Below are positions 12,015 through 30,760 of a DNA stretch of 43,898 nt, in pieces. Positions within the stretch are counted from its first letter, which is position 1, and every line of letters starts with the position of its first letter. A program made the translations under genes and the position numbers. This stretch comes from Melioribacter sp. (GTDB taxonomy: Bacteria; Bacteroidota; Ignavibacteria; Ignavibacteriales; Melioribacteraceae): assembly GCA_003155655.1 (NCBI GenBank), contig PMDS01000013.1:1-43898 (forward strand). The letters run 5' to 3'. Under the pieces are notes generated by a model. The model saw only the letters and a program-made list of their open reading frames with translations, was not told the DNA's origin and made no database searches.

Positions 12015-12797
12015 TTATTGATAGGTTTTATCATATATTTTCAAAAAATCTTTAAGAAGTAGGGCTGAAAATACCGTCGCCGTCCCATGCTCAATCCTTT
12101 TAAATTGATCTGATCCACGTTCAATCCAATGAATACCATCGAGAATAAATATTTTATATGCTTTTCCAGTAGAATTCGTTGCCAACGCCATACCATCATC
12201 GAATGCTCTTCCTTGATTTCCACCTGTAGATGATAGAAATTTAGCTTCACCAACAACATAATTCTTTCCCGACTTAGCGACTAAATCTGGCCTTTTTGAT
12301 ATTCCTATTCCCATTTCAGTATTGCAAAAATTTCTTGCGTCAAGCTCTGTCGCATCAAGTATTATTATTCCTTTTGAAGAGGCTCTAAATTGTTTTATGT
12401 CTGCAAATTTAAATTCTTTTCTTATCCATTCTGTAAATTGATTTCCTCGCCGTGTATTCGCTTCTTTTGGCTGTGTAATTCCTTCGATAACATTGTCAAT
12501 CCCCATTCCATACAATCGATTAGATATTCTTTTTACTGTTTTTGGATTTCGAGCAATCGCAGTTCTATCTCTTCTCAAAAATCCAACATATGAGTCTTTG
12601 TACGGAAACTTTTCTAAATCGAGCAGTTTATTGAGAAATACAATATTGTTCTTCTTTTTAAAAGATCGTTTAATTTCATCCAAGATAGTTTCGTCAACAT
12701 CTCTTTCACCCTCTTCGTGAGGATAAATCTTTTGAAGTTTATCGAGGTAATCTTCAGATGTAACCAAGTTCAAAGTGCGGGAAGACCATTGATTCAT
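12015..12797 (-). CDS. type II restriction endonuclease (PD-(D/E)XK fold)
   Basis: This is the probable cutting half of a type II restriction-modification system, 260 aa. The nuclease core is visible as R169-P170-D171 (SKRPDLVAK) and E184-A-K186 (VVGEAKF), the PD...ExK spacing expected of this fold. It is preceded by a helix with TRRGNQFTEWIRKEF, as in several type II enzymes. The first 43 coding nucleotides overlap the end of the methyltransferase gene, and an AAGGATC site lies before the ATG. Recognition sequence and named subfamily cannot be told from sequence alone. No nonsense or frameshift is seen, so it looks active. Confidence 0.75.
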   Translation of the reverse strand: MNQWSSRTLNLVTSEDYLDKLQKIYPHEEGERDVDETILDEIKRSFKKKNNIVFLNKLLDLEKFPYKDSYVGFLRRDRTAIARNPKTVKRISNRLYGMGIDNVIEGITQPKEANTRRGNQFTEWIRKEFKFADIKQFRASSKGIIILDATELDARNFCNTEMGIGISKRPDLVAKSGKNYVVGEAKFLSSTGGNQGRAFDDGMALATNSTGKAYKIFILDGIHWIERGSDQFKRIEHGTATVFSALLLKDFLKIYDKTYQ

Positions 12798-13818
12798 ATT
12801 GATCCTTTTTTTCTAAGACTTCTGAATATTCAAAATTAGTCAATCTTTTTTTGCAAATAGAAATAGCTTGTTTCGAAGAATCTATTCCTATCCAACTCCG
12901 ATTAAGTTCTTGTGCTGCGAACAAAGTTGAGCCAGAACCACAAAATGCATCAAGTATCAAATCCCCAACATTTGAAGAGGTCGAAACTATCATTTTTAAC
13001 ATGTCTAAATTTTTTTCTGTTGGATATTGCGGACTTTGGGGATCTTTATAAGTCCATATATCTTGTAATTTAATGCCGGCTTTCATCGTATCATCAGCGT
13101 AAATCTTTTTACGTGGATTTCCAGTAGATGACCATTCAATTAAGCCCTGCCGATCCAATTCATCTAAAATTCTTGGATCATATCTCCAATGTCTTCCTTT
13201 CGGAGGCAACATTCCTTTCCAAGACTTTCCAGTAGCGCCACGTTTTGTTTCACCAGGTGCATGAAGAGGTGTTGTTGTATATCTTCGATTATTGCTATCA
13301 ATAGAACGAAATCGTTTATCATTAGTAAATATATTTATTTTTTGACGAGGATCATTCCATATATAATTCTTTGATTTTGAATAAAATAAAATCATGTCTT
13401 TAATATTACCAAAACCTTTACGGGAAAAATTTTTGGGATTGCATTTTATCCGAGTAATATCATTAATGAAATTTTTATAACCAAATATTTTATCCATAAG
13501 AACTTTTACATAATGACCCATCTTGCTATCAATATGTAAATAAATTACCCCATCATTCGCCATTATTTCTCTAATTCGAATCAATCTGCCAGATAAAAAT
13601 CGCAGATAATCCTCTCCAGTGAGTGTATCTTTATATGCAATTTTCCCGCCATTAATGCGACTAATTGTCGAAAATCTCTCTTCTGAAAAAGTAAAATCCT
13701 GTTTTGTGCCATAGGGTGGATCGATATAAACTAATTTTACTTTCCCGTGAATTTCTTTATTTGATTCAAGGGAAATCAGAACATCAAAGTTATCTCCATA
13801 AATCAAGCGATTGCTCAT
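12754..13818 (-). CDS. beta-class DNA adenine/cytosine-N4 methyltransferase
   Basis: This is the modification enzyme of the restriction-modification pair, 354 aa. The catalytic DPPY motif is N-terminal (33-36) and the SAM-binding FCGSG is C-terminal (292-296, in LILDAFCGSGSTLFAAQEL), with the target-recognition region between. That order defines the beta group (N6-adenine or N4-cytosine). DPPY is slightly commoner among N6-adenine enzymes, so an adenine product is likely but not certain. AAAGGAT precedes the ATG. Placing the methylase upstream of and overlapping the nuclease would favour protection first. Confidence 0.88.
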   Translation of the reverse strand: MSNRLIYGDNFDVLISLESNKEIHGKVKLVYIDPPYGTKQDFTFSEERFSTISRINGGKIAYKDTLTGEDYLRFLSGRLIRIREIMANDGVIYLHIDSKMGHYVKVLMDKIFGYKNFINDITRIKCNPKNFSRKGFGNIKDMILFYSKSKNYIWNDPRQKINIFTNDKRFRSIDSNNRRYTTTPLHAPGETKRGATGKSWKGMLPPKGRHWRYDPRILDELDRQGLIEWSSTGNPRKKIYADDTMKAGIKLQDIWTYKDPQSPQYPTEKNLDMLKMIVSTSSNVGDLILDAFCGSGSTLFAAQELNRSWIGIDSSKQAISICKKRLTNFEYSEVLEKKDQYESMVFPHFELGYI

Positions 13819-20546: not shown

Positions 20547-20575
20547 GCAAGGGCTGGTTCTAAATCAGCCCTTGC
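20547..20575 (-). terminator. terminator at the end of the sugar operon
   Basis: A perfect 10-bp stem GCAAGGGCTG/CAGCCCTTGC encloses a 9-nt loop. The hydroxylase stop codon lies within it. On the minus strand it is followed by TTTCTCTATTT, so it ends the long minus-strand operon. It also lies 10 nt after the DUF4139 stop and may act weakly in that direction, though no T tract follows there. Confidence 0.75.
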
Positions 20576-21365
20576 GATAACTTCTGAATGCAAAAATGAA
20601 TTGCTTTAAATAATTATCCGGGAAAAAAGTCTTCAATCCATAAACTTCAGCACGTTCATTTGTTAAATAGGCAGTCCCAAAAATCCAATCCCATATTGCC
20701 AGCTTAGTTGAAAAATTTCTGTTGCGTCCTTTACCAGTTGTGTGATGGATTCTGTGCATTTCCGGACCGTTAATAAATTTTTGCAGGATACCTGTTTGAA
20801 CATTGATGTTTGAGTGGATATACATTCCCCACACAGCGCTTATTACACCTTTGTAAGCAATTACCTCATTCGGCGAACCAAGAATAACTATTGGAAGAAA
20901 TTCAATAGTTTGGTTGATCAGAATTTCAAATGCATGTGAGCGGGAACCTGAAAGCCAGTCAACTTTTTTAGGAGAATGATGTGCTTCGTGCAGTCTCCAT
21001 AAATACTTATTATTGTGCTGCCAGCGGTGCATCCAGTAAATATAGAAATCGTGCGTAATTGTAAAAATTATTAGCTGGATCCAGATGGGTATTGCAGTGA
21101 ATAAATGAAGTCTTGAGAGTCCGGAAGTTTTATCAATAGTACTTATTATAAACGTAAAGATTATTATTCCAAGGATGTAACTCTGTGCAATTGTATAAAG
21201 TGCAAGATCATTAAAAAATCCTTCCCGTAAAACCCCTTGTCCTTTATTATATGGAAATAATCTCTCAAGCAATATAAATAGTACAGCAGCACAAATTATA
21301 ATTGAATACGAAACCGCTTTATAATGAGGAATTGACGCAAGGCTATTCCAGATTTCGCTCAACAT
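20565..21365 (-). CDS. fatty acid hydroxylase/sterol desaturase-family membrane protein
   Basis: This is an integral membrane di-iron oxygenase-type protein of 266 aa with about four hydrophobic segments. Its histidine clusters are HDFYIYWMHRWQH (H105, H113, H117), HEAHH (H126, H129, H130), H144, H184 and HRIHH (H204, H207, H208), the eight-His pattern of the superfamily. The family hydroxylates or desaturates lipids such as carotenoids, sterols or fatty acids. The substrate cannot be told here. It is the last gene of the sugar operon, 3 nt after the synthase, so a lipid or polyprenyl-linked role is possible but speculative. Confidence 0.85.
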   Translation of the reverse strand: MLSEIWNSLASIPHYKAVSYSIIICAAVLFILLERLFPYNKGQGVLREGFFNDLALYTIAQSYILGIIIFTFIISTIDKTSGLSRLHLFTAIPIWIQLIIFTITHDFYIYWMHRWQHNNKYLWRLHEAHHSPKKVDWLSGSRSHAFEILINQTIEFLPIVILGSPNEVIAYKGVISAVWGMYIHSNINVQTGILQKFINGPEMHRIHHTTGKGRNRNFSTKLAIWDWIFGTAYLTNERAEVYGLKTFFPDNYLKQFIFAFRSYRKG

Positions 21366-21368
21366 AAT

Positions 21369-22262
21369 TTAAACTGTAATATTTGTTTTAACTTTTCTAA
21401 GTTTTTCGATGTTTTTGTGCTCACCAGGATAAACTTTCTTAATTCCATCTCCCATTGCTTTTTCAATATCACGGATGTCTTTTACAAGCCTTCTCATTCC
21501 GTCAATTTCAACAGAGGCGGCCTGATCCGTTCCCCACATTGCGCGGTCAAGAGTTATGTGTCTTTCTACAAAACTTGCACCAAGGGCTATTGCTGCAAGA
21601 GTAGGAGCCAGACCGGTTTCGTGACCTGAATAACCTATTGGAATTCCGGGGAATCTTGCTTTGTAATTTAGAATAACATTTAAATTCAGTTCTTCAAGAG
21701 AGCAGGGATAATTTGAAGTTGCCTGGGCTATCATTAAATTTTCAATATCAAGCAATTTAACAGCAGTTTCAACTTCTTCTATTGTTGACATGCCGGTTGA
21801 AAGCAATATTGGGCGCCCGGTAGTTTTGATCCTTTCAAGCAAAGGGAGATCAGTTACAGAAGCAGACGGAACTTTGTATATGATTGGTTTGAATTTTTCC
21901 AGGAAATCAACCGAATTTACATCCCACGGCGAAGCAAACCAGTCTATATTTTTATCTTTGCAATAACTGTCGATCTCAAGATATTCTTCAAAACCAAATT
22001 CCACTTTGTGTCGGTACTCAATGTATGTAATTCTGCCCCAGGGGGTTTCTCTTATTATCTCCCATTGGTCTTTAGGAACGCAGATTTCCGGTGTACGTTT
22101 TTGAAATTTGACTGCATCACAACCGGCGGAAACTGCGCCATCAATTAATCTTTTTGCCAGGTCCAATGAACCATTGTGGTTAATGCCAATCTCAGCAATA
22201 ATATATACAGGTTCGTCTTCGCCAATAAATCTACTGCCAATTTTAACTTTGCCCGGTTTCAT
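21369..22262 (-). CDS. NeuB/SpsE-family ulosonic acid synthase
   Basis: This TIM-barrel enzyme condenses phosphoenolpyruvate with an aldose or aldose-phosphate to make a sialic-acid-like ulosonate. The 297-aa protein shows YIIAEIGINHNGSLDLAK, GCDAVKFQKR, VPSASVTDLPLL, LSTGMSTIEEV and GYSGHETGL, which are NeuB hallmarks. Most family members are about 340 aa with a C-terminal antifreeze-like SAF domain; this one ends right after the barrel. The KdsC-like phosphatase is 11 nt upstream, the pairing used in KDN-9-phosphate pathways, so a phosphorylated acceptor is plausible. AAAGGG precedes the ATG. Confidence 0.9.
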   Translation of the reverse strand: MKPGKVKIGSRFIGEDEPVYIIAEIGINHNGSLDLAKRLIDGAVSAGCDAVKFQKRTPEICVPKDQWEIIRETPWGRITYIEYRHKVEFGFEEYLEIDSYCKDKNIDWFASPWDVNSVDFLEKFKPIIYKVPSASVTDLPLLERIKTTGRPILLSTGMSTIEEVETAVKLLDIENLMIAQATSNYPCSLEELNLNVILNYKARFPGIPIGYSGHETGLAPTLAAIALGASFVERHITLDRAMWGTDQAASVEIDGMRRLVKDIRDIEKAMGDGIKKVYPGEHKNIEKLRKVKTNITV

Positions 22263-22273
22263 TATAACCCTTT

Positions 22274-22795
22274 CTATTTCTTTTTTGATTTTGCTTCAAT
22301 TATAAGTTCTGCAAGATCACGAAAAGCTCCCTGACCACCTTTGCTTTCCAGAATTAAATCAGCGGCATCTTTTGCAAATCTGGTTGCATCTTTTGGACAT
22401 GCGCTCAAACCAACTGACTGCATTATTTCAAGATCATTAGTATCGTCACCAATGTAAGCAATTTCATCTTTAGAAAGATTTTTTCGTTTGCATATCTCAT
22501 CAAGATTCTTTTCCTTTTCCTGCGCTCCAAGATGCAATTCATCTATTTTTAATTTTATAGCGCGGCTTCGTACAATCTCTGTATTTTCGCGTGTTATGAT
22601 TCCGGTTTCTACATCAACCAATTTTCTCAAACGCTCAACGCCCATTCCATCTCTGATAGAATATCTTTTAAGTTCTTCTCCCTTTCCTGAATAATAAACA
22701 CCGGTATCTGTAAGAACGCCGTCAACGTCTGTTAAAAGCAGCTTAATTTTCTGAGCGCGCTTCAACAACTGTTTCTTTGTTAATTTTTTTTTCAT
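22274..22795 (-). CDS. KdsC-like HAD phosphatase
   Basis: This is a C0-type haloacid dehalogenase-superfamily phosphatase of 173 aa with no cap domain, usually tetrameric. It has the nucleophile motif LLTDVDGVLTD (D23, D25), a KRYSIRDGMG substrate loop, TRE (68-70) and the metal motif YIGDDTND (114-121). The family removes phosphate from Kdo-8-P, KDN-9-P or Neu5Ac-9-P. Adjacent to the NeuB-type gene, its likely substrate is the phosphorylated ulosonate made by that enzyme. The exact sugar is unknown. Confidence 0.9.
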   Translation of the reverse strand: MKKKLTKKQLLKRAQKIKLLLTDVDGVLTDTGVYYSGKGEELKRYSIRDGMGVERLRKLVDVETGIITRENTEIVRSRAIKLKIDELHLGAQEKEKNLDEICKRKNLSKDEIAYIGDDTNDLEIMQSVGLSACPKDATRFAKDAADLILESKGGQGAFRDLAELIIEAKSKKK

Positions 22796-22845
22796 AATTA
22801 ATTCATCAGATGTTATTGACAGCTGTTATAAATTATTTATTATTA

Positions 22846-23649
22846 TTACCATGCAGTCCATCCGCCATCAACAACAAGGTTTGCGCCTGTCATGTAACTT
22901 GAAGCATCACTAGCAAGAAAAATAAGCGCACCTTTGTAGTCGGATGGTTTAGCCATTCTGCCCAAAATAGTTTTTGCAGAATATTTCCGGATGAAAAACT
23001 CATCCTGGCTGTTTTCTACACCTCCGGGAGTTAATGTATTAACGCGCACTCCATTACTTCCCCAGTAAGCTGCAAGATATTTGGTAAACATTATTACTGC
23101 ACCTTTAGTGGCAGAATATGCCGGTGGTTTGTAAAAGGATTGTGTGCCATCTACTTTTTTATAAAGAGATTGATCCGGGGCAGTAATTCCATATGTTGAT
23201 GCAATATTGATGATGCTTCCTTTTTTTTGAACAGACATTACATTTCCAATAATCTGTGAACATAAAAAAACACCTGTTAAGTTCACATCAATTGATTTTT
23301 GCCAGAGTTCCAGGGGATAGTTCTCAAACTTTGACTGTTCGCTAGCTGCTTTGGGATCTTCAAACATGTCATTAATAGCGGCATTGTTAACCAGTATGTC
23401 AATGTGTCCAAACTTTTGTATAACTTTATCCCGTAAACCATTTACCGACTCAGGGCTTGTAACATCAAGAGAAATACCCATTGATTCAGTTAGCAGAGTA
23501 AGTGCAAATTCTCCGCATTTATCAGCATCTAAATCTGCCGCAATAACATTTGCTCCTGCCTCACTTAATGCCCTGCAATGTTCCTTACCAATAAGACCAA
23601 GCGAACCGGTAACGACTGCCGTTTTGTCTTTAAGAGAAAATAATTCCAT
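22846..23649 (-). CDS. SDR-family oxidoreductase
   Basis: This is a classical short-chain dehydrogenase/reductase of 267 aa. The nucleotide site is TGSLGLIG (14-21) with an acidic strand end (AADLDADK) that favours NAD(H). NNAA lies at about 88-91, and the catalytic set is S151, Y178 and K182 (YSATK). VDGG near the C-terminus is typical. In this operon it probably oxidises or reduces the sugar intermediate at one carbon, perhaps making the keto group that the neighbouring aminotransferase would use. The substrate is inferred only. GGAAAT precedes the ATG. Confidence 0.88.
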   Translation of the reverse strand: MELFSLKDKTAVVTGSLGLIGKEHCRALSEAGANVIAADLDADKCGEFALTLLTESMGISLDVTSPESVNGLRDKVIQKFGHIDILVNNAAINDMFEDPKAASEQSKFENYPLELWQKSIDVNLTGVFLCSQIIGNVMSVQKKGSIINIASTYGITAPDQSLYKKVDGTQSFYKPPAYSATKGAVIMFTKYLAAYWGSNGVRVNTLTPGGVENSQDEFFIRKYSAKTILGRMAKPSDYKGALIFLASDASSYMTGANLVVDGGWTAW

Positions 23650-23732
23650 TAAATATTTCCAAATAAAAAATTTATTTAAGCTATAATAATTTAACTTATC
23701 TTAGGGCTAATGGCTAACAGCTAAAAACTTAT

Positions 23733-24317
23733 TTACCACGCGTAACCAATATCGAACCTGACCGCGGGTACATTTCCATCATATGAATGGAATGCATTTT
23801 TGGAATTAGAAACAAAATAGTGGTCAATTCCGATTCCGAGTCCCATTGCAAAATCTTCTCCAGGAAACCATTGCCAGCCTAGTAGAACACCTATAGAAGA
23901 CACTAGTACATTTGAACTTGAACCGGAAGTTGAAAGTGAATTAAAAGAGAAATTTGGAGCTATATAAAATCCGCGCAGCGCTTTTTTTGAAGGATGGAAT
24001 CTTATCTCTGCATTTACTCCAAATCCATTTATGTCTTTTAATGTAGGAAATTGAATTCCTCCGCCAATTGCAATATTATTATCAATTTTATGGAAGTAAC
24101 TTAAATTATAAAACAGGAAAAATTTCAGGGGGTTAATTACGAACATATTTGTACGCGGGGTGATGTCTTCAGTCTTTGATATTATTACCGATTCAGTTGA
24201 ATCTTTTACACCTTTGGAATCAACAGTAACTTTTTTCTCAGTAGTCTTGTTTTGCGCAATAGAAATTTGATATGAGCAAAATAAAATAAAACTTGTAGCT
24301 AATATTAGTTTTTTCAT
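23733..24317 (-). CDS. outer-membrane beta-barrel-like protein
   Basis: This 194-aa exported protein has a signal peptide (MKKLILATSFILFCSYQIS, cut near IAQN), a short charged linker and then alternating strands such as NIAIGGGIQFPTL, AEIRFHPSKKALRGFYIAPN, GVLLGWQWF and AMGLGIGIDHYF. The chain ends in Tyr-Ala-Trp, so it looks like a small barrel. The function is unknown. A strong AAGGAG site precedes the ATG. It sits between the aminotransferase (0 nt) and SDR genes, which is odd for a biosynthetic operon. It is not closely similar to the barrel at 1185-1658. Confidence 0.7.
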   Translation of the reverse strand: MKKLILATSFILFCSYQISIAQNKTTEKKVTVDSKGVKDSTESVIISKTEDITPRTNMFVINPLKFFLFYNLSYFHKIDNNIAIGGGIQFPTLKDINGFGVNAEIRFHPSKKALRGFYIAPNFSFNSLSTSGSSSNVLVSSIGVLLGWQWFPGEDFAMGLGIGIDHYFVSNSKNAFHSYDGNVPAVRFDIGYAW

Positions 24318-25652
24318 TTATCTCCTTAATGGCTTCATGTTAAAATTATCAACTTTCCTAAAAACAGGCTGTACAGGTTCGCCCTTTAGCATTTCCTTTA
24401 ATTTATTTTCTGAAACAGCCTTCTTTAATATATTTAATGATTCTTCCAAAGCCAGTAGAGTGTATTCAACATCGGCATCGCTATGAGAGAACGACATGTT
24501 ATGAAATCCCTGCCATAAAATTCCGCGTTTAATCATTTCCTGCTGCATAAGGGATTTTTGAATTAAAGGATCTCCTCCTTTTACGTTAAAAGTTGCCATC
24601 GAGCGCCAATTGTAGCCTATAGCGTTTGTATATTCCATCCCAAGTTTTTGAGCAATTGAATTATACCCGTTTTTCAACTTAGCACCTTGTGTATTTAAAT
24701 ATTGCGGAACGTTCTTTTCTATTAGCTCTTCTATAGTCGCTTTTGTAGCTGCAAGTGAAAGCGCTTCACCGCCAAACGTAGTATAGAAGAAAATATCTTC
24801 GTCTGCAAGATCCATTATTTTTCTTTTACCGGTTAAGATTGAAATAGGCATACCGTTGGCAACAGCTTTTGAATATGTTGCGAGATCGGGAGTTATACCA
24901 AAATATTCCTGCGCTCCGCCAATAGCCATTCTAAAGCCTGTCCACATTTCATCAAAGATTAATACTATACCTTTTTCATTACAAAGATCTGCAAGTTTTT
25001 GCAAAAAATTATCTTTTGGTTCTGTAAATACAACCGGCTCCAGAATTATTGCCGCAACGTCGTCATCAATTGAATTTTTTACGGAATCAATATCATTATA
25101 ATTAAACGTATAAGATATTGCCTGCACTGCTTCGGGTATTCCATGATTGCGCGCAGTAACAGAAATATACCAGTCATGCCAGCCGTGATAACCGCAGCAT
25201 AAAATTTTATTTTTATTTGTATAAGCGCGTGCAAGCCGTACGGCAGCGCTTGTTGCATCTGCACCGGTCTTACTGTAACGGACAGCTTCAGCGTTTGGAA
25301 TTATTTTATGAATCATCTCTGCAACTTCTACTTCAAGCGGGTGCATCATTGAAAAGGTAATTCCATCTTCCAGCTGTTTTTTAATTGCGTTATCAACTTT
25401 TGGATATGCATAACCGAGTGATAGCGGACCAACACCCATCATGTAATCTATATATTCATTTCCGTCTGCATCCCAAACATGAGAGCCTTTCCCTTTAACC
25501 AAATATTTGGGTGCAATACCTTTTACCCATTGCCCCGGACCTTTAGCTAGAGTTTGAGTTACTGATGGAATTAATCCAACTGCGCGGTTATATAATTCAT
25601 CCGATTTTTTTATTTCAGGGTAGTCGTTATTTAAAGATATTTTATTGGGCAC
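24318..25652 (-). CDS. GSA-aminomutase-like class III aminotransferase
   Basis: This PLP enzyme of 444 aa is related to glutamate-1-semialdehyde 2,1-aminomutase. Conserved points are YIDYMMGVGPLSLGYAYP, SKTGADATSAAVRLARA, CCGYHGWHDWY, the PLP-ring aspartate D234 in LIFDEMWTGFR, the Schiff-base lysine K262 (ATYSKAVANG) and TTFGGEALS. True HemL enzymes have DEVMTGFR; the DEMWTGF variant and the operon suggest a sugar aminotransferase rather than haem synthesis. It would add an amino group to a keto sugar. The start is GTG with GGAG upstream. Confidence 0.87.
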   Translation of the reverse strand: MPNKISLNNDYPEIKKSDELYNRAVGLIPSVTQTLAKGPGQWVKGIAPKYLVKGKGSHVWDADGNEYIDYMMGVGPLSLGYAYPKVDNAIKKQLEDGITFSMMHPLEVEVAEMIHKIIPNAEAVRYSKTGADATSAAVRLARAYTNKNKILCCGYHGWHDWYISVTARNHGIPEAVQAISYTFNYNDIDSVKNSIDDDVAAIILEPVVFTEPKDNFLQKLADLCNEKGIVLIFDEMWTGFRMAIGGAQEYFGITPDLATYSKAVANGMPISILTGKRKIMDLADEDIFFYTTFGGEALSLAATKATIEELIEKNVPQYLNTQGAKLKNGYNSIAQKLGMEYTNAIGYNWRSMATFNVKGGDPLIQKSLMQQEMIKRGILWQGFHNMSFSHSDADVEYTLLALEESLNILKKAVSENKLKEMLKGEPVQPVFRKVDNFNMKPLRR

Positions 25653-25969
25653 GGTTTTCTCCAGCGTTTAGATATTAGTCTTTAGCTATTAGTAAAAATT
25701 TTAGTTTGCAGCGAATTCAACATTTTCTTGATTTCGTTTATTTCTTTAATTAATACTTCGCTTAATTCTTTTTTTATAAATTCTAAATCAGTTACCAAAA
25801 TTAATAAATAGTCTACTTCACTGGCGGAACCGGCAGCAATGCTTAAATACTTTGCCAAATCTTTAGGTGTTTGCTTACCGCACTCTTCTTCAATATTTGT
25901 CAGAACGGAAATAACTGCTCTTCTTAGTTAAGATGTAATTCCTCACAATTCTTTTTTAGGAAACGATTT

Positions 25970-25979
25970 AGTTATCTTA
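25970..25979. repeat. target-site duplication, left copy (element A)
   Basis: AGTTATCTTA, identical to 26231-26240. Read on the minus strand it encodes part of the duplicated YKIT of the interrupted gene. Confidence 0.85.
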
Positions 25980-26230
25980 CTCACCTTACTCATAATTTAA
26001 TTCATAACCATGTCCTTCAGGACGTGGAGTGTAACCAAGTAAAAAAATCCGGGCTTTAGCCCAAATAAAATAGATGAAGATTTAAGCTAATAACGAAATT
26101 ATGTTTCTATTAAACAAAGAGTTGGGCTAAAGCCCTTTTCTTTTTTTTGTTGTCTTTTGTCACCACCGTAAACGGTGGAGTTATGAAGTTTTAAAATCAA
26201 TTGACGTAAATACCATTTTTGCATAACGTG
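25980..26230 (-). mobile_element. non-coding insertion element, copy A
   Basis: This roughly 251-bp element has imperfect terminal inverted repeats: CTCACCTTACTCA at the left, and TGCATAACGTG plus AG at the right, about 10 of 13 matching. It is flanked by a 10-bp direct repeat. It has no transposase and no convincing ORF. Inside are four hairpins: CCATGTCC-TTCA-GGACGTGG (26008-26027), GGGCTTTAGCCC (26051-26062), GGGCTAAAGCCC (26124-26135) and CCACCGTAAACGGTGG (26162-26177). It is about 95% identical to copy B in reverse orientation. It behaves like a MITE mobilised in trans; the hairpins also recall REP-type repeats. The family is not assigned. Confidence 0.85.
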
Positions 26231-26240
26231 AGTTATCTTA
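26231..26240. repeat. target-site duplication, right copy (element A)
   Basis: AGTTATCTTA, identical to 25970-25979, marks the other edge of element A. Confidence 0.85.
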
Positions 26241-26320
26241 TAAATTTCTATTGCAAATTTATGTGACCGTTCCCAAACAATTAATTTTTTATAATCCCTC
26301 ATATACCCTCCATTAATGAG

Positions 26321-27220
26321 CTAACTGCTAATAGCTTTTGTTATCTTTTCCGCAATTTGTTTTGAAGTAAATCCTTCATATTCTAACACGTCATTTAGAA
26401 GTCCCGGTTTGAACCACTTATTCATCAATGCAAATGGAAGGACTTTTGCAGTTTTGTTATTTCTTAGCAATACTTCTGCAAGTATGGTATATAATCCTCC
26501 GGTAATAAAATGATCTTCTATGGTAACAATTAATTTGCATTCATCTACTGTTTTCAGAATTGCATTTTCATCAATTGGTTTTGGTGTTCTTATGTTTATT
26601 AATCTTACAGAAAATCCTTGAGATTCTAAAATTTCCTTTGCCCGGAAAGCCTGTGTAAATAAAAATCCATGAACAAGAATTGCCACATCGGTTCCTGAAC
26701 CAAAAGTTTCAGCTTTGCCGATTTCAAAATCAGAATGTTCAACAACAGCTTTAACGGTGTTATAACGCATATAAAATGGAGAAGGACTTTCAAAAACTTT
26801 TCTTAAGCCTTTTAACATGTCTTCTTCATCGGCAGGTGAAAAAACATTTACGTTTGGTATTCCGCGCATTATAGAAATATCTTCCAGGGCTTGATGTGTT
26901 GGACCATTGCCGTCGGAAAGGAAGCCGGGTACTGCCCCAACAATCTTTACAGGAAGATTACCAATGCCAACATCTGTACGAATAAATTCAAATGCGCGCA
27001 TTGTTAAAAAGGTTGTTAATGCATGTACAATTGGAGTACGTCCACGGAGTGCCAACCCTGCCGCCATCCCAATCAAAGTCTGTTCAGCTATTCCAACATC
27101 AATAAAATTATTCGGGATAAGAGGGGGTAAATCTCTAAACGCCGCACGGTTTTCAGATGTCATGATAAGGAAGCGATCATCTTTATTAATAAGGTCTATT
27201 ACAATATCTGAGTATGTCAT
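26321..27220 (-). CDS. transketolase, C-terminal subunit
   Basis: This is the pyrimidine-binding/C-terminal half of a two-gene transketolase, 299 aa. It has the catalytic glutamate E46 (VGIAEQTLIGMA), PGFLSDGNGPTHQALEDISI, SPADEEDM and a C-terminal transketolase domain (GTDVAILVHGFL, TIEDHFITGGL). It needs the N-terminal subunit encoded 1 nt upstream. Split transketolases of this size are common in surface-polysaccharide clusters and archaea. Here it could move a C2 unit to or from a sugar in the operon's pathway rather than act in the pentose phosphate cycle. GAGAT precedes the ATG. Confidence 0.9.
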   Translation of the reverse strand: MTYSDIVIDLINKDDRFLIMTSENRAAFRDLPPLIPNNFIDVGIAEQTLIGMAAGLALRGRTPIVHALTTFLTMRAFEFIRTDVGIGNLPVKIVGAVPGFLSDGNGPTHQALEDISIMRGIPNVNVFSPADEEDMLKGLRKVFESPSPFYMRYNTVKAVVEHSDFEIGKAETFGSGTDVAILVHGFLFTQAFRAKEILESQGFSVRLINIRTPKPIDENAILKTVDECKLIVTIEDHFITGGLYTILAEVLLRNNKTAKVLPFALMNKWFKPGLLNDVLEYEGFTSKQIAEKITKAISS

Positions 27221-27221
27221 T

Positions 27222-28127
27222 TTATCTCGCTACAATAGTTTCAGAAGTTAATTTTGCTTTTTTGTTGCCATGCAATTCATTTAGAAGCTGTTCAATCTCT
27301 TCTTCTTTAAAGTTTACAAACCACCGGTCTGCCCTTTTTTCGATACTTGGCAGTCCTTTACCACGAACTGTCTCTGCAATAACTACAGAAACCTTTCTTT
27401 TTTCAAACGGGAATTTTTTGAAAGTATTATTCATCTGGCTGAATTTATGACCGTTGATAGTTTTGACTTTGCAGCCAAAAGCTTCAAATTTTTTATCAAG
27501 CGGTTCAAGCGGAATTAAATCTTCAGTTGGCAAATTTGCCTGGAACTGATTACGGTCAACTACAATTAATAGATTATCTAATTTTTTTGCTGAGGCAACC
27601 AAAAGTGCCTCCCACATGGAACCTTCATTTAATTCGCCGTCACCAACAACTACAACAATTTTATTCTTTTGTTTACGGAATTTACAGTCTAAAGCTACAC
27701 CCATAGCTACGGATAGATTATGACCGAGAGAACCGGAATGGAATTCAATTCCCGGAATATTCCTGTTTGGATGCCAGTAAATAAAATCATTTGTCTTAAG
27801 GTGATTTTTTAAGCGTGCTTCATCCAGCCAGCCAAGTTCTACATAAGTACTATACAAAGCTGGAACGTCGTGCCCCTTTGAAAGGAAAAAATAATCACGG
27901 GCGGGGTCTTTAAAATTATCAGGTGAAACGTTTAAAAATTCTTTGTACAGGTAGACAATCAAATCTGCGCATGAAAGCGATGCCCCAATAAAACAGCCGC
28001 CATTGCCGCTCATTCGTATAATATGTTCGCGGACACGCAGAGCCATTTTTTTCAATTCATTGTTCTGCCGAAAAGTATCTTTTCCTTTTTTAGATTTTGG
28101 TTTTTTAACAGGTTTTAGTTTTTTCAT
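27222..28127 (-). CDS. transketolase, N-terminal subunit
   Basis: This is the thiamine-diphosphate-binding half of the split transketolase, 301 aa. It has FLSKGHDVPALY, SGSLGHNLSVAMG, the ThDP/Mg motif GDGELNEGSMWEA (162-174) and VVDRNQFQ. The N-terminus is unusually basic (about 20 residues rich in Lys/Pro) compared with typical subunits. Its start overlaps the stop of the cytidylyltransferase gene (ATGA, 4 nt) and it is followed after 1 nt by the C-terminal subunit, so all three are tightly coupled. Confidence 0.9.
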   Translation of the reverse strand: MKKLKPVKKPKSKKGKDTFRQNNELKKMALRVREHIIRMSGNGGCFIGASLSCADLIVYLYKEFLNVSPDNFKDPARDYFFLSKGHDVPALYSTYVELGWLDEARLKNHLKTNDFIYWHPNRNIPGIEFHSGSLGHNLSVAMGVALDCKFRKQKNKIVVVVGDGELNEGSMWEALLVASAKKLDNLLIVVDRNQFQANLPTEDLIPLEPLDKKFEAFGCKVKTINGHKFSQMNNTFKKFPFEKRKVSVVIAETVRGKGLPSIEKRADRWFVNFKEEEIEQLLNELHGNKKAKLTSETIVAR

Positions 28128-28924
28128 TTTTTTGAGAGTTTGTTTTTGTATTCGTCAATGTTTTTTAATTCGTTAAGATGTTCTTCATACCAATATTTAC
28201 CAAGGTACTTTTTGTTAATTGCTGCAATTTCCGGCTTTTCGTTAAGTAAATTTAAAATATCATTCATTGTAAAAATAGGATTGCTAGGATAAAGTTCCGC
28301 GTAGACTTTTCTTACAAATTCATAGTCTTCAGGGAAATCAATTGTCCAGCGCTGGGTTGTCGAATAATCAAGACCTGTTTCCCAGGTAACATTGCCGATA
28401 GAAAAGTGGTCTTTATTTTCCCAGATGAATGGCGTTGTATGCTCGCGTTCAAAATCTTTTGTTGCATCTTTCCAGGCGCATTCAATTGCCTCAAAAGAAA
28501 ATATTTCAACATCATTTCCATCGGGATAAGTTGCCGGGTGAAGATTACTGACGTAATCAAATTCATTTGAGTTGATATATTGCTGTAACACTTTATCTAT
28601 AATCACCGGGTCTATAAGAGGGCAGTCCGATGGTATTTTTACTACGGCATCGGCGCCATATTTTTTCCCAACCTGGTAATGGCGGTCAAGAAGATCGGTT
28701 AAATGCCCGCGGAAACAATCATAATTATTTTCAAGACAAACTTTTTCAATTTCATCATCATCAGGGTTGGTTGATGTTGCAACAACAATATTCCCTGCCA
28801 ATTTTGCCGCATGAACTCTTTCAAGCATTTGTACCAGCATTGGTTTACCAAGAATCGGCAGAATTACTTTCCCAGGCAGCCGGGTTGAGGACATTCTTGC
28901 TTGTATTACAGTTACAATTTTCAT
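28124..28924 (-). CDS. SpsF-type cytidylyltransferase
   Basis: This 266-aa nucleotidyltransferase is of the SpsF/NeuA-like group. It has VTVIQARMSSTRLPGKVI (nucleotide-binding loop with the R-x-x-S-x-R-LPGK pattern), NIVVATSTNPDDD, VVKIPSDCPLIDPVII and the metal aspartates in this segment. Family members make CMP-activated ulosonic sugars or other NDP-sugars. With a NeuB-type synthase and a KdsC-type phosphatase in the same operon, the likely reaction is CTP plus ulosonate to CMP-ulosonate. There is no separate NeuA/KdsB in the window. Confidence 0.87.
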   Translation of the reverse strand: MKIVTVIQARMSSTRLPGKVILPILGKPMLVQMLERVHAAKLAGNIVVATSTNPDDDEIEKVCLENNYDCFRGHLTDLLDRHYQVGKKYGADAVVKIPSDCPLIDPVIIDKVLQQYINSNEFDYVSNLHPATYPDGNDVEIFSFEAIECAWKDATKDFEREHTTPFIWENKDHFSIGNVTWETGLDYSTTQRWTIDFPEDYEFVRKVYAELYPSNPIFTMNDILNLLNEKPEIAAINKKYLGKYWYEEHLNELKNIDEYKNKLSKK

Positions 28925-28942
28925 TATACAAAAAACTATCTT

Positions 28943-29155
28943 TTATTTTGGCTTATCAGTTTCTTCTTCTTCCATCTTTTTAACTTTTTGTTCAACAACC
29001 TGTTCAATTGCAGAACGTTGTTCCTTATCATAGAATTCATAAGTTGCAGCATATAAATTAAGGCTGCCGCTATTTCTCATCCTCTTTGCAATCCAGACTA
29101 CTCCGCAAAAAAACGCGGCAAAAATAAAAAGGGCGAGTATTAAATCAGTATCCAT
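28943..29155 (-). CDS. small single-pass membrane protein
   Basis: I do not recognise this 70-aa protein. One hydrophobic helix (LILALFIFAAFFCGVVWIA, residues 5-23) is followed by a basic turn (KRMRNSG) and a charged helical tail (EQVVEQKVKKMEEEE). It sits 14 nt after the transferase gene and 18 nt before the cytidylyltransferase gene on the same strand, with GGTAAGG upstream of the ATG, so it is probably real. It might tether an enzyme of the operon to the membrane; this is inference. Confidence 0.55.
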   Translation of the reverse strand: MDTDLILALFIFAAFFCGVVWIAKRMRNSGSLNLYAATYEFYDKEQRSAIEQVVEQKVKKMEEEETDKPK

Positions 29156-29169
29156 GCCTTACCAAAAGA

Positions 29170-30180
29170 TTAAGCAGTTTTCAAATCGAATGCTTCGCGA
29201 ATCTTATCATACTCAATGCTTGGTCCCTTTAGCAGGTGCATGCCAATTCTTGCAATTCTTTCTGCAGAAGTACCGTTGTTTTGAAGAGGAAGCAGTTGTT
29301 TCAATTCATCTATATCAAATTTAGAGTATACAATTTTTCCAAGTGCTAAGCCTACGTAAACCACGGATGAATATTTTGTAATAAGTACATCGCAGTTTGC
29401 AATCATGTGGTCTGTAATGCCATTTGTATATACAAGGGCTCCCGGTGCATATTTGTTAATTTCGTGTTCAGCACGATTAAAATTTTCATGTGGATGCAGC
29501 TTAAAAATCAGGGGCTTCCCATCTGCTATGCCGACACATTGCTCAATAAATTTTTTCCTGTTCTCGTATCTGTAAGTTTCACGCATGTCCGAAGTACAGA
29601 CAAGTACAAAATTTTTATAAGGGAAATCGTTATTCTTTACAAGATGTATATTGTCAAAATTTGGAATACCGGTCACAATTATTTTTTCTTCATTTGCTCC
29701 CTTACGTATAAATAAATTTTTATATCCGTAAGAAGCCACACAAAATAAAGTGTACATGTTCGAAATACCCATTGTAGATGTGCTTGCTATCCAACGGGGC
29801 AGCTTTAAATATTTTACGAGGTAGAATATCAAATTTTCAGGATCGGTCATCCCTTCCTGAACAAGAATTACCTTTTTATTCCTGATATTTTGCTGAAAGA
29901 TCAGATCAGCACATGTATAAACTAAATCATAATTATGCTTAATTCCCCTGTAATCAACCTGCAAATTATTATTATGCAGATATTCCTCTGTTTTTTGCCG
30001 AAAATGTCCGTTAAGTATTGAAAAACCAAGAAAGCCTTTACCAACTAGATAATTTATTAATCCATCACCATAGTAAGGAGTAAAGTAGCAATCATATTCT
30101 TCAAAATGCTTGGAAATTTGGTGCATCATTGAAGTTTGGTTGAGTGAACCGCAAATGAAAAGAATTTTTTTTCTACCCAT
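29170..30180 (-). CDS. GT-B-like glycosyl/glycerophosphotransferase
   Basis: This 336-aa protein resembles the CDP-glycerol glycerophosphotransferase/capsule-synthesis group. Features are an N-terminal Rossmann start (KKILFICGSLNQTSMM), VTGIPNFDNI, LIFKLHPHENFNRAE (the HPHE block seen in these transferases) and a C-terminal donor-binding-like DVLITKYSSVVYVGLALGK. The acceptor and donor are unknown; it is a good candidate to transfer the operon's activated sugar. ATG at 30207 would add nine residues. The candidate promoter at 30219-30226 fits the 30180 start better. It is the first gene of the operon. Confidence 0.68.
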   Translation of the reverse strand: MGRKKILFICGSLNQTSMMHQISKHFEEYDCYFTPYYGDGLINYLVGKGFLGFSILNGHFRQKTEEYLHNNNLQVDYRGIKHNYDLVYTCADLIFQQNIRNKKVILVQEGMTDPENLIFYLVKYLKLPRWIASTSTMGISNMYTLFCVASYGYKNLFIRKGANEEKIIVTGIPNFDNIHLVKNNDFPYKNFVLVCTSDMRETYRYENRKKFIEQCVGIADGKPLIFKLHPHENFNRAEHEINKYAPGALVYTNGITDHMIANCDVLITKYSSVVYVGLALGKIVYSKFDIDELKQLLPLQNNGTSAERIARIGMHLLKGPSIEYDKIREAFDLKTA

Positions 30181-30218
30181 AGTTTTTAAGAAAATAGAAT
30201 TTACCATTTAGTGAACAA

Positions 30219-30226: not shown

Positions 30227-30406
30227 CTAACTATAAATATTTAATTCTTTGGTCTTTTATTAAGAAATTGTTAAAATAAATAAAATCTAACTAGTCTTTT
30301 TATTTTGATTTTAAATTTAATTATTTCTTTATTGAAAAGGGCGATAAGACTATGCTTTTGTTCAAATGTTATAATATATTTTTTTTTATTGCACATGAAT
30401 TATTAA

Positions 30407-30760
30407 CTCATGTTACGCAAAAACGGTATTTACGCCAATTGATTTTAAAACTTCATAACTCCACCGTTCAGAGGCTGTGTGATAATTAAGATTTTTTGAA
30501 AAAATGTTTCGATTTCTTTTTAAAAACAAAACTAAAATTCTCTTAACCCCCTATTTTCACACAGGCTCTTCACCGTGGAGACAAAAGACAACAAAAAAAG
30601 AAAAGGGCTTTAGCCCAACTCTTTGTTTAATAGAAACATAATTTCGTTATTAGCTTAAATCTTCATCTATTTTATTTGGGCTAAAGCCCAGATTTTTTTA
30701 CTTGGTTACACTCCACGTCCTAAAGGACATGGTTATGAATTAAATTATGCGTAACATGAA
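30407..30760 (+). mobile_element. non-coding insertion element, copy B, with nested insertion
   Basis: This is a second copy of element A in the opposite orientation. The terminal inverted repeats are near perfect: CTCATGTTACGCA (30407-30419) and TGCGTAACATGAA (30748-30760). A direct repeat AATTATTAA flanks both ends (left copy 2 nt away), probably the target duplication. The central 140 nt or so, from ACAAAAGACAAC to GGGCTAAAGCCC, is identical to copy A except for one A in a homopolymer. The CCACCG...CGTGG hairpin is split by a 98-bp insertion. It lies in a non-coding gap between the transferase and YwqK-repeat genes. Confidence 0.85.
30471..30568. mobile_element. 98-bp nested MITE-like insertion
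   Basis: Terminal inverted repeats GAGGCTGTGTGA (30471-30482) and TCACACAGGCTC (30557-30568) match at 11 of 12 positions. They are flanked by a 4-bp direct repeat TTCA (30467-30470 and 30569-30572). Deleting insertion plus one TTCA restores a 16-nt hairpin of the same length as in copy A (CCACCGTTCACCGTGG versus CCACCGTTTACGGTGG). It has no coding capacity. The parental transposon family is not assigned. Confidence 0.85.

Follow-up and report, generated by a model that had tools for sequence, protein, structure and literature searches.

To our knowledge, the known routes to sialic-acid-like sugars start from uridine diphosphate N-acetylglucosamine (UDP-GlcNAc), GDP-GlcNAc, mannose-6-phosphate or arabinose-5-phosphate. 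The pathway to 3-deoxy-D-glycero-D-galacto-nonulosonic acid (KDN) combines a NeuB synthase, a KdsC-like phosphatase and a cytidine monophosphate (CMP) transfer. In the 8-amino-Kdo route, KdnB and KdnA oxidise and aminate 3-deoxy-D-manno-octulosonic acid (Kdo) on the Kdo backbone. According to excerpts of PMC7439481, the Bacillus subtilis sps legionaminate pathway includes a NeuB-type synthase, SpsF and an adjoining TagB-domain protein, and uses the nucleotide-sugar dehydratase SpsM. Here, we describe a minus-strand operon of nine pathway genes at positions 20565-30207 of a 43,898-nucleotide stretch of Melioribacter sp. DNA (contig PMDS01000013.1; hereafter, the window). It resembles the KDN pathway in its synthase, phosphatase and CMP transfer, but adds a dedicated transketolase, a class-III aminotransferase, a short-chain dehydrogenase/reductase (SDR), a transferase and a membrane hydroxylase. 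We regard it as a genuine ulosonic acid pathway that includes a dedicated transketolase, is conserved in many bacteria and, within the reach of literature searches, has not been described.

The nine-gene set is a conserved unit in many environmental bacteria, and the transketolase, which is split into two proteins in the window, belongs to the pathway. From 30207 to 20565, the genes encode, in order, a GT-B fold transferase (GT), SpsF, the transketolase halves TkN and TkC, the aminotransferase (AT), a product without known family, the SDR, the KdsC-like phosphatase, NeuB and the hydroxylase:

29170-30207, minus strand: GT-B fold transferase, TagB/TagF-like, candidate CMP-ulosonate transferase (structure model with a predicted local distance difference test, pLDDT, of 93; fold comparison; invariant motifs).
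28124-28924, minus strand: SpsF-type cytidylyltransferase (PF02348, CTP_transf_3, 110 bits; closest solved chain 6oew, 'Cytidylyltransferase').
27222-28127, minus strand: TkN, N-terminal half of the split transketolase, binding thiamine diphosphate (ThDP) (PF00456, Transketolase_N, 95 bits; GDGE..EG kept).
26321-27220, minus strand: TkC, C-terminal half of the split transketolase (PF02779, Transket_pyr, 90 bits; PF02780, Transketolase_C, 62 bits).
25682-26320, minus strand: broken, repeat-interrupted four-helix-bundle (23S_rRNA_IVP-type) gene, a passenger (locus L034 encodes it unbroken at the corresponding position, PF05635, 139 bits).
24318-25652, minus strand: class-III pyridoxal-phosphate AT, PRK06209-like (PF00202, Aminotran_3, 180 bits; PRK06209, 392 bits).
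23733-24317, minus strand: open reading frame (ORF) without known family in Pfam and NCBIfam scans, not conserved in the unit according to relatives' loci.
22846-23649, minus strand: SDR with Ser151, Tyr178 and Lys182 (adh_short_C2, 167 bits).
22274-22795, minus strand: HAD hydrolase like KdsC and KDN-9-phosphate phosphatase (NCBIfam models NF058599 and TIGR01670; solved-chain comparison).
21369-22262, minus strand: NeuB-type ulosonate synthase, antifreeze-like domain not found in a Pfam scan (PF03102, 259 bits).
20565-21365, minus strand: membrane fatty-acid-hydroxylase-type enzyme, OlsE-like (PF04116, FA_hydroxylase, 106 bits).

A first-pass annotation of the window had proposed a synthase-phosphatase-activation triad (NeuB, KdsC-like, SpsF) in one operon, with a split transketolase, an aminotransferase, an SDR and a terminal membrane hydroxylase. 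All of these genes were found on the minus strand, and their families agreed with the Pfam and NCBIfam matches. The start given for the unit, 20565, was correct, but its end, 30180, fell short, as the leading GT-B gene carries the unit to 30207. The gene inventory was likewise right in what it named, but overlooked this leading transferase, the fused replacement of the split pair and the lipid-type neighbours seen in some relatives.

To describe the conservation of the operon, loci were gathered by similarity to the aminotransferase (best 80 of 520 stretches, plus further genomes), so that the conservation reported here is conditional on the AT gene. After removal of identical AT segments, 117 distinct loci were retained, of which 79 had at least 4.5 kb of upstream and at least 5.5 kb of downstream flank; the 38 short-flank loci were excluded, among them L142 and L145, which carry a fused transketolase inside the operon. 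Genes in these loci were called with six-frame profiles, and 'not found' there means below the score limits used. Greedy ORF calling garbled GC-rich loci in one locus survey, and the core counts rest on the six-frame profiles instead.

In 71 of the 79 full-flank loci (hereafter, core loci), SpsF, SDR and NeuB share the strand of AT and lie within 9 kb. Among these 71 loci, GT was present in 70, the hydroxylase in 60, KdsC in 57 and TkN with TkC in 53. Other recurring genes encoded a calcineurin-like phosphoesterase (22 loci, on either strand), OlsF (12), a small-multidrug-resistance-type membrane protein (12) and LPG-synthase-TM (5). The recurring order in relatives was GT-SpsF-TkN-TkC-AT-SDR-(KdsC)-NeuB-hydroxylase. 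The operon is not a chance grouping, since both its genes and their arrangement are found again in several phyla. Two counts weigh against the pathway reading that we prefer (see below): the hydroxylase was not found in 11 core loci, and TkN and TkC were absent from 18.

Among the matches listed, the nearest named records by AT similarity were Melioribacter, Stygiobacter and other Ignavibacteria. The unit occurred in Bacteroidota and some other phyla, including Stygiobacter, Melioribacter, Ignavibacterium and Chitinophagaceae records, and all or much of it was present in records with the titles Chitinophagaceae, Kapaibacterium, KSB1, Nitrospiraceae and Desulfobulbaceae, most of them metagenome bins. 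The cultivated Stygiobacter electus (L091) also has the operon. The six-frame profiles found no transferase in the KSB1 locus and no hydroxylase in the KSB1 and Desulfobulbaceae loci. A plasmid of the gammaproteobacterium Methylomagnum ishizawai carried GT-SpsF-TkN-TkC-AT-SDR-NeuB-HAD, the hydroxylase being absent, followed by LplT, OlsB-like and OlsA-like genes. Pairwise distances among the nine genes were correlated (r from 0.54 to 0.86), in a comparison that included no unlinked control gene.

Eight full-flank loci fell outside the core: seven had no adjacent NeuB gene, and L131 had one. Remote NeuB proteins (63-69% identity), none of them encoded beside the AT locus, were found in G043, G122, G115, G160, G167, G171, G311 and the genome of L132. 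Three of these eight were in SDR-KdsC-NeuB-hydroxylase clusters, three in KdsC-NeuB-hydroxylase clusters and one in a NeuB-hydroxylase pair, and around one, no other pathway gene lay within 1.5 kb. The blocks of a divided unit can therefore be retained together in a genome: in L167, L169 and L132, a GT-SpsF-TkN-TkC-AT block and an SDR-KdsC-NeuB-hydroxylase block were found in the same genome. The view that AT loci without a neighbouring NeuB form a separate module was rejected, since the seven genomes and G167 have NeuB elsewhere. Two plasmids of haloarchaea and one of Neorhizobium also encode AT relatives (38-46% identity), but in different gene sets. Across 164 Ignavibacteriales genomes, AT was present in 85 and NeuB in 87, with both in 82, AT alone in 3, NeuB alone in 5 and neither in 74. 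These genomes are not independent, a limitation that a genus-level table lessens.

The ThDP-binding, pyrimidine and C-terminal transketolase domains are all present across TkN and TkC (PF00456, PF02779 and PF02780), and the ThDP motif of TkN (D163, G164, E165, E168 and G169) was kept in 82 of 82 sequences. A two-chain enzyme is also found in the Carboxydothermus split transketolase (6yaj), the closest solved chain to TkC; unlike it, the present pair is encoded in an operon with NeuB and SpsF. Some Ignavibacteria had no TkN and TkC between SpsF and AT. To locate other forms of the enzyme, Transketolase_N (PF00456, E ≤ 1e-10) was searched in 57 genomes, 38 of them Ignavibacteriales. Of the 13 genomes whose operon is without TkN and TkC, 11 encoded a second transketolase, fused and divergent, with a length of about 660 residues; of the other two, G057 carried a split pair that was weaker and unlinked, and G019 (86% complete) had neither form. 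The unlinked fused enzyme shared 59-62% identity with the operon copy of L145 and 52-56% with the L142 copy, as compared with 28-30% with the window's split enzyme and about 25% with two housekeeping enzymes. Moreover, the fused transketolases of L142 and L145 are located between SpsF and AT.

Among the 164 Ignavibacteriales genomes, 41 had the split form, 41 the fused form and none both. A dedicated transketolase was present in 75 of 85 AT-positive versus 7 of 79 AT-negative genomes (Fisher test, 1e-26) and, by genus, in 37 of 38 AT-positive versus 2 of 30 AT-negative genera. The dedicated transketolase belongs to the pathway because the two forms are mutually exclusive, follow AT across genomes and genera and, in L142 and L145, include a fused copy within the operon. 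Some observations are at odds with this assignment. Neither form was detected at the thresholds used in 10 of the 85 AT-positive genomes; seven of the ten are less than 90% complete, and the G006 locus is truncated by the end of a contig on which TkC is still present, but incompleteness does not explain G057 (99% complete, with the weaker unlinked pair) or G360 (92%, none found). The sole PF00456 match at E ≤ 1e-10 in G035 (99% complete) was the fused enzyme, which may thus also serve central metabolism there.

This last genome, together with the 18 core loci without TkN and TkC, could be taken to mean that the transketolase is a general metabolic enzyme located in the operon by chance, with the pathway made up of the remaining genes. 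We consider this quite improbable, given the mutual exclusion of the two forms, their tracking of AT, the fused copies between SpsF and AT, and the separate canonical transketolase (about 670 aa) in 36 of the 38 Ignavibacteriales genomes, including that of the window (G000, contig C78). The exceptions were G015 (81% complete) and G035. The operon enzyme as sole housekeeping copy was rejected on the same count.

The substrate of the dedicated transketolase is probably not the usual one, as judged from altered motifs and a profile score. Where two housekeeping enzymes have SGH, TkN had GGCF in 82 of 82 sequences, F46 replacing the histidine; the contrast was drawn against those two enzymes. The fused form retained this histidine in 13 of 13 sequences. 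In place of the EDGPTH motif of the two housekeeping enzymes, split sequences had [GA]NG[PA]TH and fused sequences GPGKSH. We take these differing motifs to be part of the substrate pocket. TkC scored slightly higher on the NCBIfam dxs model (170 bits) than on the transketolase model (154 bits), which counts against our preferred reading in that another donor, such as pyruvate, is possible. For TkN and TkC, we predict that a two-carbon (C2) unit would pass from a ketose to an aldose.

Among the remaining enzymes, AT had as its best NCBIfam match PRK06209, 'glutamate-1-semialdehyde 2,1-aminomutase' (392 bits versus a cut-off of 486), and its S261-K262 pair was invariant in 13 of 13 sequences. 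The SDR catalytic residues were kept in all or nearly all sequences (S151 in 118 of 118 sequences, Y178 in 117 of 118, K182 in 118 of 118). NeuB exceeded the curated PF03102 cut-off of 22 bits, but scored below those of the N-acetylneuraminate and pseudaminate synthase models (TIGR03569, 262 of 400; TIGR03586, 207 of 340). With 297 residues, it is without the antifreeze-like (SAF) second domain, common though not universal in the family, as far as the Pfam scan shows; this short form has a solved counterpart of 290 aa, 6ncs. NeuB was aligned with the solved SpsE, PseI, NeuB and 6ncs chains; among relatives, E24, Q54, K55, S155, Y185, H214 and E233 were kept in 115 of 115 sequences. Both 6ncs and 6oew are presumably Leptospira proteins. 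The word transketolase was not found in the available portion of PMC3438082, which deals with Leptospira.

The genome of the window also encodes other NeuB proteins. One, about 71% identical, is found in L054 (G000:C16, 6248-10852), where it is flanked by a calcineurin-like phosphoesterase and OlsF but by none of the other pathway genes; a second NeuB near OlsF was also observed in G073:C3 and G421:C61, and not in G010 and G005. A separate cluster, L055 (G000:C133), encodes NeuB at full length (352 aa) together with an SpsF-like protein and, from translations, a DegT-type aminotransferase and a dehydratase-like protein; it is perhaps a separate pseudaminate-type route.

The HAD protein passed the cut-off of TIGR01670 (139 bits, cut-off 107) and narrowly missed that of the KDN-9-phosphate phosphatase model NF058599 (162 of 180 bits), a point of difference from the KDN pathway. 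That the latter was its best model suggests that the NeuB product is phosphorylated. It is also compatible with a KDN-like route with late amination, in which NeuB would act on mannose-6-phosphate, KdsC would remove the phosphate, SDR and AT would oxidise and aminate a hydroxyl group on the finished ulosonic acid, in the manner of KdnB and KdnA on Kdo, and the transketolase would merely supply a sugar phosphate. Such a route would agree with the closeness of the HAD protein to 3e81 and related chains, which we take to be Bacteroides KDN-9-phosphate phosphatase, and with the sugar C-6' aminotransferases among the class-III matches of AT (7lld). It offers no reason, however, for a dedicated transketolase that tracks AT across genera, and KdsC was not found beside NeuB in 14 of the 71 core loci; we regard it as unlikely.

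The product of the leading gene, modelled from 55 sequences, is assigned by structure comparison to the GT-B fold only. The nearest solved chains were 2-epimerases, with Z scores of up to 18.2 (NeuC 5zlr, 17.4), followed among glycosyltransferases by PglA (15.0), TagF (14.9), MurG (14.5), the polysialyltransferase 5wc6 (14.2) and TarL (14.1). Epimerase_2 matched 46 of the 55 members versus 36 for Glyphos_transf, all weakly. Both results count against a transferase and would fit a NeuC-like 2-epimerase, the operon then being a modified ordinary N-acetylneuraminate (Neu5Ac) route. Nevertheless, we judge this very improbable: the same fold is shared by many glycosyltransferases (TagF, MurG, PglA, polysialyltransferase), the Glyphos_transf matches are accompanied by YSS and HP motifs, which we presume to be like those of TagF and polysialyltransferases, and a route through N-acetylmannosamine would require no transketolase, aminotransferase or SDR.

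Q117-E118-G119, H238-P239 and S280 were invariant in the 55 sequences. Bacterial sialyltransferases carry D/E-D/E-G and HP motifs, according to part of PMC2169525; the Q-E-G and H-P motifs of the leading protein resemble these sialyltransferase (GT38/52/80) motifs, although its first position is Q and not D/E. In excerpts of PMC7439481, TagB-domain proteins are named as candidate transferases of sugars of this kind, and B. subtilis SpsB, which has a TagB domain and these motifs, is dispensable for legionaminate transfer, a further point against the assignment. From its motifs and modelled fold, we favour a CMP-ulosonate transferase, with an epimerase kept as the rival.

The hydroxylase kept its four checked histidines in 85 of 85 sequences, and its sole NCBIfam match was OlsE (NF052566, 112 bits of a 475-bit cut-off). 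OlsE and OlsF are ornithine lipid enzymes (PMC11631085, in part), and the operon resembles that system in its OlsE-like hydroxylase and in the OlsF gene beside the unit in 12 core loci, but differs in that its hydroxylase scores far below the OlsE cut-off. The OlsF member tested scored 718 bits, above the curated cut-off of 620, and OlsF lay within 15 kb of AT in 18 of the 28 genomes having both. Over the 164 genomes, OlsF was not associated with AT (28 of 85 AT-positive versus 19 of 79 AT-negative genomes, p = 0.23); this speaks against a lipid link, and OlsF was rejected as an obligatory partner. An assignment of the neighbouring calcineurin-like phosphoesterase as PlcP was unsupported, its NCBIfam matches being weak and of other kinds.

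These families suggest a lipid as acceptor of the activated sugar, and the operon carries one transferase gene; a single-sugar glycolipid is a plausible product. A more specific proposal is a new class of membrane glycolipid, in which a transketolase-built amino-ulosonic acid would be CMP-activated and put directly on a lipid by the TagB/TagF-like transferase, the lipid being hydroxylated by the OlsE-like enzyme; it would be phosphorus-free, zwitterionic or acidic, and present in several phyla. We offer this as a speculative possibility that we consider rather unlikely. No open-access PubMed Central paper was found that joins nonulosonic acids with ornithine lipids.

Our preferred reading, held with slightly more confidence than doubt, is that the operon serves, by a dedicated route, to make a CMP-activated ulosonic acid that probably bears an amino group; transketolase, AT and SDR would build an unusual NeuB acceptor, and the sugar would be destined for an envelope acceptor. 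First, the pathway-specific transketolase (split here, fused elsewhere) would move a two-carbon unit to yield a ketose, probably phosphorylated. Second, AT and SDR would turn this ketose into an amino-aldose, the ketone becoming an amine and the primary alcohol an aldehyde. NeuB would then join the amino-aldose to phosphoenolpyruvate, giving a 3-deoxy-2-ulosonic acid phosphate (third step), from which the KdsC-like phosphatase would strip the phosphate (fourth), before SpsF forms the putative CMP sugar (fifth). Sixth, the GT-B protein would hand the CMP-activated sugar to an envelope acceptor, possibly a lipid and, seventh, the OlsE-like hydroxylase would modify the lipid or the sugar. The data allow C2 transfer, amination and oxidation to yield the NeuB acceptor; we infer all substrates, the order of the first two steps, the acceptor and the seventh step.

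Compared with the 8-amino-Kdo route, the operon shares oxidation and amination within an ulosonic acid pathway, but it has NeuB, an SDR and a class-III aminotransferase, families other than those of KdnA and KdnB. It is not a Kdo pathway, because the synthase KdsA is encoded separately in G000; a replacement of Kdo was rejected, as KdsA was present in 146 of 164 genomes (G000:C111 included). Neither is it a legionaminate or pseudaminate route of known kind, because a nucleotide-sugar dehydratase, the function of SpsM in B. subtilis, was not found among ten operon proteins in Pfam and NCBIfam scans. The first-pass annotation had named no Neu5Ac, legionaminate, pseudaminate, Kdo or 8-amino-Kdo route known to use this set, and full-text searches of open-access PubMed Central literature found no paper with a matching set.

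Other features of the locus were also observed. Promoter and terminator scans showed no excess (28 versus 38.9 in shuffles, and 9 versus 7.6, respectively). An inverted repeat is present in two copies, at window positions 25981-26235 and 30404-30759, with 167-nt arms that are 97% complementary and 65-nt arms that are 94% complementary; one copy breaks the four-helix-bundle gene between TkC and AT, and the other lies upstream of the operon. Relatives' operons host small passenger genes (L034:8397-8750, L034:11081-11533, L191:8823-9197 and L099:12625-13080), namely a four-helix bundle, an IS200-like Y1 transposase, PDDEXK_3 and a weak PIN match. In L138, L171, L173 and L192, two or three tandem genes of the same cluster precede AT (the one tested belongs to the Uma2 family); L138 and L171 are apparently one Thermochlorobacteriaceae contig. 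The ORF at 23733-24317 was shared by L031 only among 23 relatives examined, and L094 also has it. At window positions 12015-13818, a DNA methylase-like gene is followed by a restriction-enzyme-like gene, from translations only.

The set occurs in both cultivated and uncultivated environmental bacteria. If the proposed route is true, sialic-acid-like sugars would have a new entry point, their backbone being supplied by a dedicated transketolase. The mutual exclusion of split and fused forms allows the role of this transketolase to be tested directly, and the lipid-type neighbours point to a possible head group that could be sought by lipidomics.

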